Origin: a bacterium
GTDB taxonomy: Bacteria; SZUA-79; Acidulodesulfobacterales; Acidulodesulfobacteraceae
Length of the DNA stretch: 64,000 bases
Assembly (NCBI GenBank): GCA_021789605.1
Contig: JAJYJI010000005.1
Coordinates: 21,951-85,950, forward strand
Direction of reading: 5' to 3'
A program made the translations under genes and the position numbers. The notes under the pieces were generated by a model, which saw nothing but the letters and a program-made list of their open reading frames with translations, had not been told where the DNA came from and ran no database searches. Within the stretch, counting starts at the first letter, position 1, and each line of letters opens with the position of its first letter. Shown here piece after piece: positions 48,068 to 53,453 of this stretch.

Positions 48068-50365
48068 TTAAAAATATCCGAGCTGCCTTAATTTATCCAT
48101 AGCCGCTTCCTTGTCCTGCGACCTCCCGGAACGTTCGGCTTCGCCCCCCGTAATTTTTGTGCAAGGCTTGCAGTCTATCGACCTGTAGCCTTGTTCATAC
48201 AGGGGGCAGTAAGGAATATTATTCAATTTTATATAATCCCAGATATCCGACTCGGTAAAGTGGAGAATGGGATGGACGCGGTAATGGTGGGGCGCTTCTC
48301 TTTTGGAAAAATATTTTTCGTTTGCGCGCGATTCGTTTTCGTCTTTTCTTATTCCGGTCATTAAAGCCTTTAAATGCAGTTCTTTGACGGCATTTTTTAT
48401 AGGAACGGTTTTTAACAGGCTGCAGCAGTTTTGTTTATCTTCGGCGATAGAAATAGTTTTCAGGGCTTCGGTATTTGTATATACCAGCAAATCGAAATTC
48501 CATTCTTTTTTTAATTTCTCTATAAAATCGCGTATCTCCTGAAATTCAACCGAAGTTTCGATAGTGAATATTTTGAACGGAATTTGTCCGTCGAAGGCGT
48601 TTCTTACCAAATGAAGCAGAACGGAAGAATCTTTACCCCCCGTAAAAGCTATTCCTATTTTTTCTCCGAAACGGTCGTACGCTTCTTTTATAATTTCGAC
48701 GCTTAGCGATATTTTTTGATTGAGCAGAACAAGGGATTCGTTTTTACCGTCTTTTTTAGGTTCGTTAATAATTATGCCCGTTTTTTTAACGCTGTCGAAT
48801 AAATTTTCGGTAGAAACCGATTTCTTTTCGATATTATTTAATATTTCGACGTATTTGGCGGATTCTGTCAAATCCGGGTTAAAGTTTATTGGGTTTTCTT
48901 CATAAAGGTCGTTGGAAAGGTCGTAGTAAAAATTTAAATTTCTATTGTATATATCCGAGTTAGTTATATTTTTATATAAATTTAATCTTGCGTTTTTATC
49001 GGTTTTAAGGGATTTAAGAGAGTTTAATAATTGTAAGAATTCGACCTTGCCTATGCGCTTTCTGAGGATGTCGTTAAATATGCTGATAATATAATCTTCA
49101 TCCGACAGCATTACGTTTTCGATAATATTTTTTGTCTGGAGTTCGGAAATCTTATCGGGCATAAATATATATTTTTTATCGGCCGTCCTGATGGCGCGCT
49201 GAGACAAAAAGTATTTATCTTTGGACGAAGCGCCGTTTTTATTCCTGTCGTATTCGTTAGCTGTAAATTGCATTATTTCGTTGTACATATTTTGAGTGTA
49301 AAATTCGGAATAGCAGAATTCCCTTTTTTCGAATAGCGATTGGCCGTCTATTCCGCGACCCGAACCGTTTGAATTTTCCGTTATTTTTTTGCCGTTCGAA
49401 TCCCCGTTCAAATTATAAGGCTCCAAGCCGGATAAAGAAATTAAAGTAGGAAAGATATCGGTTATAGAAGTTAATTTTTCGTAAATTTTATTCTCGATTT
49501 CGGGGGCGTGAAAAATAAGGGGCAAATGAATTACTTCGTCATATAGTTCTCCCATATGCCCGAATACCGACTGGTCGAACATGGTTATCCTTCCTTCTCC
49601 GTGGTCGGAAAAAACGGCGAAAATATTTTCGGGATTAAAATACCCCATTTCTTTTAAAGATTTATAAATCCCGCGGAAGCGTCCTTTATCGAATTTATTG
49701 ATGCCGTAGATATAAGGGGGGAGCATAACGTTTAAATCGTAATGGACTTTGCCGGCAAAATAGTTCCATAGGGCGAAAGGATTATCGGTGTTAGTCGGAG
49801 TTTTATAAAGGACCGACATTTTCTTCATAAAATCGAAATATTCGCGGTTGTAATTATCCTCGTTGTAATTCTGCGAATAAATATAGGGTTCGTGGACGTC
49901 GAAAAGATGAACGAAGCAAAAAATATTTTCATCTTTAACCGCTGAGAGCTGTTTAATAAGGTCGTTAATATTTCCGGCAGTTTTGTAATCGAATCCTTTT
50001 GCCAGCCCCAACGGCTCGAATAATTCAAACACGTCCGTATAAAATATAGTTTTATAGCCGTTTTTTTTATAAACTTCCGCAAGCGTAACGGCGTCGCCGT
50101 TTAATTTTTTATAGAAAAACGGCCTTACTCCGTGGGCGGGAGGATATAAACCGGTGAACAGCGATGCATGGGCGGACGTTGTATAACTTGACGTGGAAAA
50201 AAAATTAGTAAAAATAGACGCGTTAGACGAAATTTCGTCCAACGTGGGGGTATCTACGAGGGTATCGACGTAATACTGCTTTAGATGTGCCCTGTTTTTA
50301 TTATAGCCGACGCAGTCGTATCTTAGGTTGTCGATAGATATGAGCAAAACTTTTTTTGGTTCCAT
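48068..50365 (-). CDS. Alkaline-phosphatase-superfamily hydrolase fused to APS-reductase-like PP-loop domain
   Basis: Residues 1-320 form a sulfatase/phosphatase-like domain: ISIDNLRYD (D12, N13), TTSAHASLFTGLYP (62-75), FDVHEP, FSDHGEG (D254, H255) and H270. The sulfatase CxPxR motif is replaced by TTSAH, so no formylglycine can form; a Thr nucleophile, as in phosphotransferase branches, would be expected. Residues about 545-765 form a PAPS-reductase-family domain: PP-loop FTGGKDSS (574-581), a CC pair (647-648) and CKPC (732-735) in the positions that bind 4Fe-4S in APS reductases. The catalytic ECGLH tail is missing; the end reads MDKLRQLGYF, as in CysD-like proteins. The linker (320-545) is unrecognised. 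AAGGA precedes the ATG. No signal peptide. Confidence 0.8.
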   Translation of the reverse strand: MEPKKVLLISIDNLRYDCVGYNKNRAHLKQYYVDTLVDTPTLDEISSNASIFTNFFSTSSYTTSAHASLFTGLYPPAHGVRPFFYKKLNGDAVTLAEVYKKNGYKTIFYTDVFELFEPLGLAKGFDYKTAGNINDLIKQLSAVKDENIFCFVHLFDVHEPYIYSQNYNEDNYNREYFDFMKKMSVLYKTPTNTDNPFALWNYFAGKVHYDLNVMLPPYIYGINKFDKGRFRGIYKSLKEMGYFNPENIFAVFSDHGEGRITMFDQSVFGHMGELYDEVIHLPLIFHAPEIENKIYEKLTSITDIFPTLISLSGLEPYNLNGDSNGKKITENSNGSGRGIDGQSLFEKREFCYSEFYTQNMYNEIMQFTANEYDRNKNGASSKDKYFLSQRAIRTADKKYIFMPDKISELQTKNIIENVMLSDEDYIISIFNDILRKRIGKVEFLQLLNSLKSLKTDKNARLNLYKNITNSDIYNRNLNFYYDLSNDLYEENPINFNPDLTESAKYVEILNNIEKKSVSTENLFDSVKKTGIIINEPKKDGKNESLVLLNQKISLSVEIIKEAYDRFGEKIGIAFTGGKDSSVLLHLVRNAFDGQIPFKIFTIETSVEFQEIRDFIEKLKKEWNFDLLVYTNTEALKTISIAEDKQNCCSLLKTVPIKNAVKELHLKALMTGIRKDENESRANEKYFSKREAPHHYRVHPILHFTESDIWDYIKLNNIPYCPLYEQGYRSIDCKPCTKITGGEAERSGRSQDKEAAMDKLRQLGYF

Positions 50366-52129: not shown

Positions 52130-53146
52130 ATGGATGCTTATAATTACAGAGCGGAAAATAACGAATTTTATATACAATGGCACTTCGTTAGCTCCTGCAA
52201 TTTAAGATGTATTCACTGCTATCAAAACGATTATAAACGCGAAAACCCCGCACCGGATAAACTTAAATCAATTTTTTTAAAAATAGATGAAGCTATGTCT
52301 AAATGGAAAATGAAATGTTTTGTTTCGCTGACCGGAGGCGAGCCCTTTCTGGAGCAGGATTCCCTTTTCTATTTAACGGATTTAATCGAGAAATCTGATA
52401 ATTTCCGCAATATCGCCATACTAACAAACGGCACATTAATCGACGATGAAGCAATCAGCCTGTTAAAAAAATATAAAAAAATTTCCGAAATTCAAATATC
52501 TTTAGACGGACACGACGAAAAAACGCATGACGCTATAAGGGGACGAGGAACCTTTTTAAAAGCTGCGGAATCTATACGCAGGCTGAAAGATGCCGGGATT
52601 AAAACATCGATAATGTTTACCCTGCATAAAAAAAATAAAGGGTCCGTTTTAAGCATGCCGGAATTAACATGCTCTTTAAAAGCCGACGCCCTTACCGTCG
52701 AGAGAATGACGACCATGAACCAAACCGAAGAGAAGGATTTTTTCATAGAGCCGCAGGAATTAAAGGCTATTTATTCAGATATTTACAGCAAAACAAAAGA
52801 CGTCTTTTTTGGTAAAAACGCTAAATTTATTACGTCGAGGCCTCTATGGAATCTGGTTGACGAAAATATAGGCGGCTACTGCCCCGCAGGGCTTTCCTCC
52901 TTATGCATACTCGAAGACGGAACTTTACTGCCGTGCAGAAGGCTTTATCTGCCGTTGGGGAATATCTTAACGGACGGGTTGTTTAAAGTATGGTATAATT
53001 CCGACATTTTATGGGATATCAGGAAAAAGGCCGGCGGAAGCGAATGTTCGGACTGTTCCCATTCCGAGAGGTGCGGCGGGTGTAAAGCCGTAAGCTACTA
53101 CCGCAACGGCGATTTAAATTCGAAAGACCCCCAATGCTGGGTATAA
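52130..53146 (+). CDS. Radical SAM-SPASM peptide maturase
   Basis: Predicted RiPP-modifying enzyme. Seen: radical SAM motif C23-x3-C27-x2-C30 (SSCNLRCIHCYQND), SAM-binding TGGEPF, ISLDGHDEKTHDAIRG, and a C-terminal SPASM domain rich in cysteines (YCPAG, LCILEDGTLLPC, then C306, C309, C315, C318, C336) that would hold auxiliary 4Fe-4S clusters. Length 338 aa, PqqE-like. There is no fused PqqD domain; the next gene supplies it, and a 34-residue precursor follows. Family knowledge: such enzymes install C-C, C-O or thioether crosslinks. The reaction cannot be deduced. Confidence 0.9.
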   Translation: MDAYNYRAENNEFYIQWHFVSSCNLRCIHCYQNDYKRENPAPDKLKSIFLKIDEAMSKWKMKCFVSLTGGEPFLEQDSLFYLTDLIEKSDNFRNIAILTNGTLIDDEAISLLKKYKKISEIQISLDGHDEKTHDAIRGRGTFLKAAESIRRLKDAGIKTSIMFTLHKKNKGSVLSMPELTCSLKADALTVERMTTMNQTEEKDFFIEPQELKAIYSDIYSKTKDVFFGKNAKFITSRPLWNLVDENIGGYCPAGLSSLCILEDGTLLPCRRLYLPLGNILTDGLFKVWYNSDILWDIRKKAGGSECSDCSHSERCGGCKAVSYYRNGDLNSKDPQCWV

Positions 53147-53189
53147 GAAGCCGGCCAAGAAAGCCGAAAAAAGGGAGATAATATAAGAT

Positions 53190-53453
53190 ATGGGGATATT
53201 TAAACTTTCTGAAAATATAAGCATAAAAAAGAAAGGCGAAAATTATTTACTTTTCGATAACCTTAACGGAAACATATATAAAATAAACGAAGTATCGTAT
53301 AAAATTTTATCTTTGTGCAACGGCAAAAACACGGAAGAAGATATAATAAAAAATATTACAAGCTCTTTCAGCGTCGCGCATGAAGAAGCGGTAAAAGATT
53401 TTAACGTTTTAATGCAAAATCTCTTAGAGAGGCTGTATGTAGCAAACGTATAA
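53190..53453 (+). CDS. PqqD-like RiPP recognition element
   Basis: 87-residue winged-helix protein. Seen: ENISIKKKGENYLLFDNLNGNIYKINEVSYKILSLCNGKNTEEDI, the pattern of PqqD-family peptide chaperones, and a C-terminal helical part. It would bind the precursor leader and present it to the maturase, forming a three-gene RiPP unit. Starts 43 bases after the maturase stop with GGGAGAT upstream. Confidence 0.87.
   Translation: MGIFKLSENISIKKKGENYLLFDNLNGNIYKINEVSYKILSLCNGKNTEEDIIKNITSSFSVAHEEAVKDFNVLMQNLLERLYVANV

Follow-up and report, generated by a model that had tools for sequence, protein, structure and literature searches.

A sulfatase-fold domain fused to a CysD-like PP-loop domain in Acidulodesulfobacterales, with a possible role for activated sulfate in surface-glycan assembly

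Within the window (the whole stretch of 64,000 nucleotides that was analysed), the gene at 48068..50365 on the minus strand encodes a 765-aa protein in which a sulfatase-fold domain of the alkaline phosphatase (AlkP) superfamily is joined to a CysD-like PP-loop domain. Each half belongs to a known superfamily; no description of the fusion was found in the open-access literature searched. Our preferred reading, put forward tentatively, is that the protein is bifunctional, works in the cytoplasm and handles activated sulfate while surface glycans are assembled.

Architecture and occurrence of the fusion

The gene is a single unbroken ORF at exactly the coordinates given above, and all features of it described below lie on the same strand. 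Pfam recognised each half separately, PF00884 at residues 6–313 and PF01507 at residues 572–737, confirming the combination of a sulfatase-like and a PP-loop domain that an earlier note on this DNA had proposed; homologous full-length fusions show the same arrangement. The AlphaFold2 model of the 765-aa protein (mean pLDDT 84.9) consists of two folded halves separated by a low-confidence flexible hinge at residues 526–543 (48737..48790), where pLDDT is below 50 and the length is variable in the alignment. A second structure model, of residues 313–765 alone, was of lower confidence (pLDDT 72.8). Alignment of 14 fusions showed that T62, the AlkP metal residues, the PP-loop, four cysteines and the C-terminal tail are invariant.

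A search for the same fusion elsewhere found it in assemblies that are independent of one another, as well as in the genome of an isolate. The source genome contains three full-length fusions, namely the 48068–50365 gene and two tandem copies, and about half of the 30 genomes of the family (Acidulodesulfobacterales) carry the fusion; the relatives include Candidatus Acididesulfobacter diazotrophicus, whose name assigns the group to Acidulodesulfobacterales. The isolate is Desulfovirgula thermocuniculi DSM 16036, with a full-length fusion of 42% identity. The MAG DeMMO6_17 also contains a full-length fusion, in which the PP-loop is degenerate and the cysteines are missing. Because the fusion is present in many genomes, in three copies here and in an isolate, it is not an assembly join, and an artefact of assembly or annotation was ruled out. 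Plasmid and phage collections yielded single-domain relatives only and no full fusion. At one locus (L069:8998-12656) two sulfatase genes stand in tandem, the first having a degenerate PP-loop domain with neither GKDS nor any of the four cysteines; this pair suggests that the PP-loop domain can decay to a non-catalytic role.

The two halves had been described as joined by about 225 unrecognised residues. On the basis of the model, and of PF13946 matches in relatives, this region could be assigned to the C-terminal strands of the sulfatase half, a DUF4214-type helical module and the short hinge. The C-terminal subdomain of the sulfatase half occupies residues 345–402 (49160..49333), with model strands at 351–359, 384–393 and 397–401, mostly at pLDDT >80. 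The helical module follows at residues of about 412–474 (48944..49132; model helices at 408–468). PF13946 is not significant in the 48068–50365 copy itself; it is found at the aligned place in a paralogue and in relatives, and is significant in most relatives (down to 4.8e-13). Standalone sulfatases of the subfamily, such as that of L112, share this architecture.

The PP-loop half

The C-terminal half, including its tail (residues 544–765, 48071..48736), was recognised by PF01507 at 1.5e-46 (159 bits, cut-off 22.5). The NCBIfam models ranked it as CysD first (NF003587) and CysH second, both below cut-off; the CysD models were not reached (144.8 vs 195 for NF003587 and 110.8 vs 396.6 for TIGR02039). 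Fold matches included 4bwv and 2goy (APR), 1zun (CysD; rmsd 1.9, 31% identity) and FAD synthase, the best Foldseek matches by E-value being APS reductases. Identity to E. coli CysD was 31%.

The domain has an intact PP-loop, TGGKDS, at residues 575–580 (48626..48643), and two pairs of cysteines that are predicted 4Fe-4S ligands, Cys647-Cys648 (48422..48427) and C732-K-P-C735 (48161..48172). PP-loop and cysteines are invariant in the 14 fusions, and CxPC also occurs in four-Cys CysD. The fusions therefore contain the CC...CxxC ligand pattern of a 4Fe-4S cluster, the cluster itself being predicted; CC and CxxC are missing together in the DeMMO6_17, CPR and Desulfolutivibrio homologues, as expected if the four cysteines belong to one shared cluster. 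K652, R673, R745 and R748 are invariant as well. The protein ends in an ERSGR...MDKLRQLGYF tail (48071..48136; ER-GR, M, LR and GYF invariant) in place of the reductase ECGLH tail, and the ECGLH-type catalytic Cys is absent from all fusions. A tail of the LxxLGYx type is common to unrelated sulfatase-fold proteins (L070, L071, L073, L112, L118, L119) and PP-loop proteins.

From CC, CKPC and the missing ECGLH, the earlier note had concluded that this half resembles an APS reductase without its catalytic tail. The motifs are as it described (CC at 647–648, CKPC at 732–735); the reductase assignment was not borne out. GKDS is intact in the fusions, in unfused relatives and in CysD, whereas it is absent in all CysH rows examined. 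In an unrooted tree of 42 domains, 12 CysH rows formed a separate clade (100/99) with the fusions outside it, 11 CysD rows formed a clade (100/100), also without fusions, and the fusion domains and unfused 'GY' relatives fell outside both. In addition, widespread 267-aa proteins encoded beside CysN-type GTPase genes have the same CC, CxPC and LRxLGYM tail and no ECGLH, so that Fe-S cysteines without ECGLH are also normal in a CysD-type protein; the fusion tail matches the tails of such CysN-partnered CysD and of E. coli CysD. With the assimilatory APS reductases (CysH, 4Fe-4S type, e.g. P. aeruginosa 2goy) the domain shares the fold, CC and CxxC, and the conserved K and R of the sulfonucleotide site; it differs from them in its ATP-type loop, its missing catalytic Cys and its place in the tree. 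An APS-reductase-type Fe-S domain that has lost its catalytic tail and is coupled to a sulfonucleotide-acting hydrolase, as PF01507, the cysteines and the Foldseek ranking could be taken to indicate, is thus very improbable.

CysD proteins, including the four-Cys group, share with the fusion the intact GKDS, the motifs KAFxGxIPF, xFxEhxxF and RDE...R..E...S.R and the ER.GR...M..LR..GYx tail, and the four-Cys group also shares CC and CxPC. Unlike CysD, the fusion domain belongs to a separate, well-supported clade, scores below the cut-offs and is joined to a sulfatase domain. CysN, the GTPase driving CysD, was found in 0 of the 30 family genomes, so the fusion is not part of a canonical CysDN. 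In the tree, the PP-loop domain is a third clade, neither CysD nor CysH, and its substrate may therefore differ. A protein with four Fe-S cysteines and no ECGLH can thus be CysD-like and use ATP, a point of importance for annotating many 'PAPS reductase family' genes.

The sulfatase-fold half

The catalytic domain of the N-terminal half (residues 6–313, 49427..50350) matched PF00884 at 3e-21 (76.5 bits, cut-off 25), with structural matches to S1 sulfatases (Foldseek probability 1.00) and phosphonate monoester hydrolases. The Asp/His metal-ligand set and the nucleophile position of the alkaline phosphatase superfamily are both present. D12, D156, H158, D254, H255 and H270 are invariant in the fusions, and the stretch from S253-D254-H255-G256 to H270 (49556..49609) contains predicted metal ligands of the AlkP site. 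Unfused partner sulfatases also keep D12, H153, D156 (E in one), H158, D254, H255 and H270 (Q in one).

Classical sulfatases have Cys or Ser at the nucleophile position, which becomes formylglycine. The absence of the formylglycine motif, reported earlier, was confirmed, TTSAH being found at residues 62–66. In the alignments the YTTSAHAS motif (50162..50185) places T62 (50180-50182) in the Cys/Ser position of C-x-P-x-R sulfatases; Y61, T62 and A65–S68 are invariant in the 14 fusions, and with both T62 and H66 invariant the C/S-x-P-x-R motif is not present. T62 is also found in every partner and standalone sulfatase aligned. Judged from these alignments, the missing motif represents a putative Thr nucleophile position, not a defect. 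Type I (S1) sulfatases and phosphonate monoester hydrolases have in common with the fusion PF00884, the fold, the D and DH metal ligands, DxH..PY and H270. The fusion differs from them by Thr62 for Cys/Ser and His66 for the Arg of C-x-P-x-R, by a cytoplasmic-looking N-terminus and by the DUF4214 module in its C-terminal part.

The combination of Thr and a DH metal motif usually goes with phosphotransferases and phosphodiesterases; that this half hydrolyses sulfate esters is therefore not to be assumed, and it also gave weak PF01663 matches. These features would suit a decoration without sulfur: a phosphate or carboxylate compound would be the substrate that the PP-loop half adenylylates, and the AlkP half, with its Thr, would move a phosphoryl moiety to a glycan. 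FAD synthase, which adenylylates FMN, is among the fold matches of the PP-loop half, and a nucleotidyltransferase gene adjoins some fusions. However, Sat, APS kinase and sulfotransferases turn up repeatedly in the gene neighbourhoods (see below), and the K/R set typical of sulfonucleotide binding is invariant; both speak against such a reaction, which we consider rather unlikely.

Genes around the fusion

The 48068–50365 gene stands alone, with a YifB/ComM-type gene on one side and a nickel transporter on the other; neither cysC nor cysN, which had been suggested as neighbours to look for, adjoins it, and the genes on either side give no clue to its role. In one sister group the fusion lies between recR and ffh. 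The two paralogues in the source genome are part of a row of genes on one strand, encoding a TPR-sulfotransferase, fusion, fusion, a methyltransferase and glycosyltransferases, spaced by roughly 60 bp at most. In relatives, the fusion adjoins glycosyltransferases, a sugar nucleotidyltransferase and methyltransferases. The Desulfovirgula fusion has GDP-mannose-dehydratase-type genes on one side and a methyltransferase and five glycosyltransferases on the other, with ABC exporter genes upstream.

Genes for sulfate activation were found in the sister genomes, where APS kinase lies beside a sulfotransferase-like gene (the latter assigned by motif only). Across the family, presence of APS kinase goes together with that of the fusion (14/17 vs 5/13; Fisher p=0.023, kinship not corrected for), and Sat is present in 27 of the 30 genomes. 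Neither Sat nor APS kinase was found in the source genome, which may be due to an assembly gap; an argument from the absence of Sat there was dropped, as 27 of 30 relatives possess it.

A pairing of the same two superfamilies is known from type 4 BREX, in which a PAPS-reductase-family protein and the AlkP-superfamily PglZ occur in one system (PMC12839542), and which may be regarded as the closest conceptual parallel. BrxP and PglZ of that system differ from the fusion in being separate proteins of different subfamilies, active in DNA phosphorothioation defence (PMC12839542). Since no other BREX or Dnd genes adjoin any fusion, and glycan genes are found there instead, a comparable defence role is hardly credible.

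Unfused counterparts

In two Patescibacteria records (L072, L074) a PP-loop gene lies directly before a sulfatase gene inside a glycan cluster. Two further families, represented by four genomes (L114, L176–L178), also have the PP-loop and sulfatase genes unfused and side by side. The order there runs from ATP sulfurylase through the sulfatase to the PP-loop gene, ATP sulfurylase being adjacent in three of the four. An AlkP-superfamily gene was found next to 6 of 11 standalone PP-loop relatives vs 0 of 16 CysH loci; these six include close kin and amount to about two independent lineages, besides the fused ones. The unfused adjacent pairs support a coupling of sulfatase and PP-loop functions.

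Three of the loci (L176:2759-7430, L177:1-7372 and L178:175-9720) are organosulfate-type clusters of ATP sulfurylase, a Thr-type sulfatase and a PP-loop gene. Two of the genomes have two arylsulfotransferase genes and further sulfatases nearby; the arylsulfotransferase genes were confirmed in L177, and similar genes are present in L178. Such company, together with the sulfatase fold, would fit scavenging of organosulfates, the sulfatase half freeing sulfate from an intracellular organosulfate and the CysD-like half activating it at once to APS. For the fusion itself this seems unlikely: a Thr stands at the nucleophile where Cys/Ser would be needed to form formylglycine, the Lys/His that classical sulfatases have in GKWH do not appear at the expected place in the sequence, and the fusion paralogues lie among biosynthetic, not catabolic, glycan genes.

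A related arrangement was found in two genomes (L112, L113), in which a sulfatase of the same subfamily (38% identity) overlaps an APS kinase gene (TIGR00455, 205.7 vs cut-off 138.7) in a glycan cluster. This pair resembles the fusion in its sulfatase subfamily, DUF4214 module and LGYF tail, and an O-antigen-type ABC exporter adjoins it in L113; unlike in the fusion, the activating partner is APS kinase, not a PP-loop domain, and the two are unfused. Directly upstream of the pair in L112 (L112:9469-10311) a second, small sulfatase-fold protein (STM4013-like) is encoded.

In two other genomes (L152:140-3434 and L155:1-3327) a gene of the type I phosphodiesterase family (PF01663), which belongs to the AlkP superfamily, lies immediately upstream of the genes for a four-Cys CysD and for CysN. 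This order raises the question whether the AlkP half of the fusion could serve sulfonucleotide housekeeping by removing PPi, PAP or excess APS, thus pulling or resetting sulfation while the PP-loop half makes APS. As no CysN is present in the 30 family genomes, APS formation would need pulling in another way, and the sulfate pathway of a methanogen is accompanied by a PAP phosphatase (PMC10322725). The AlkP half is, however, closest to sulfatases and not to known PAP phosphatases or pyrophosphatases, which makes this explanation quite improbable.

Proposed function

As the partners that keep recurring are enzymes of sulfate or APS, found for the most part within surface-glycan clusters, the most likely role is to make and use activated sulfate while surface glycans are assembled. 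The coupled activity on a sulfonucleotide or related substrate that was suggested in the earlier note is upheld in part: sulfate or sulfonucleotide chemistry is indicated by the genes that accompany the relatives (Sat, APS kinase, CysD/CysH-like PP-loop proteins, arylsulfotransferases and a sulfotransferase), while the identification as APS reductase had to be given up.

For the activated-sulfate reading, the following course of events can be envisaged. The PP-loop domain would bind ATP at GKDS and adenylylate sulfate as CysD does (ATP + sulfate -> APS + PPi); K652, R673, R745 and R748 are candidates for binding the anion, and C647, C648, C732 and C735 would hold a structural 4Fe-4S cluster. 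The product would then cross the short and flexible hinge to reach the AlkP/sulfatase-fold domain at the N-terminus. There Thr62, bound to metal, may take part in moving a sulfuryl (or phosphoryl) group onto a glycan or its precursor, or in trimming. This reading has to contend with Sat in 27 of the 30 family genomes, beside which a second source of APS would often be redundant, with the lack of CysN in all of them, and with the fact that we know of no precedent for a sulfatase-fold sulfotransferase of this kind. What the data show is the fusion with its intact and conserved motifs, its relationships, the coupling of the two gene types in several lineages, and the company of glycan and sulfate-activation genes. 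That sulfate is the substrate and APS the product, that a cluster forms and that the protein works as a transferase we infer; a setting in glycan sulfation has firmer backing than whichever individual reaction is assigned to the sulfatase half.

Glycan sulfation requires a sulfurylase, APS kinase and a PAPS-dependent sulfotransferase. That surface-glycan clusters repeatedly pair a sulfatase-fold enzyme with a CysD-like protein, Sat or APS kinase suggests a different organisation of sulfation, with a sulfatase-type fold possibly working in synthesis. In its most far-reaching form, one polypeptide would make APS without CysN, and its own sulfatase-fold domain with the Thr nucleophile would be an APS-dependent glycan sulfotransferase, bypassing APS kinase and the classical sulfotransferases. 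We consider this version fairly unlikely.

Two other groups of genes were observed in the same genome. In the window, at 52130–53453, the gene for a SPASM radical SAM protein comes first and that for a PqqD-like protein next; the two may form a pair that modifies a peptide. Elsewhere in the source genome (L116:6900-10970, G000:C24), genes for a PF01507 protein (366 aa), an unknown protein of 380 aa and a HerA-type DUF87 protein (593 aa) form a three-gene cassette that looks like a defence or DNA-modification set.
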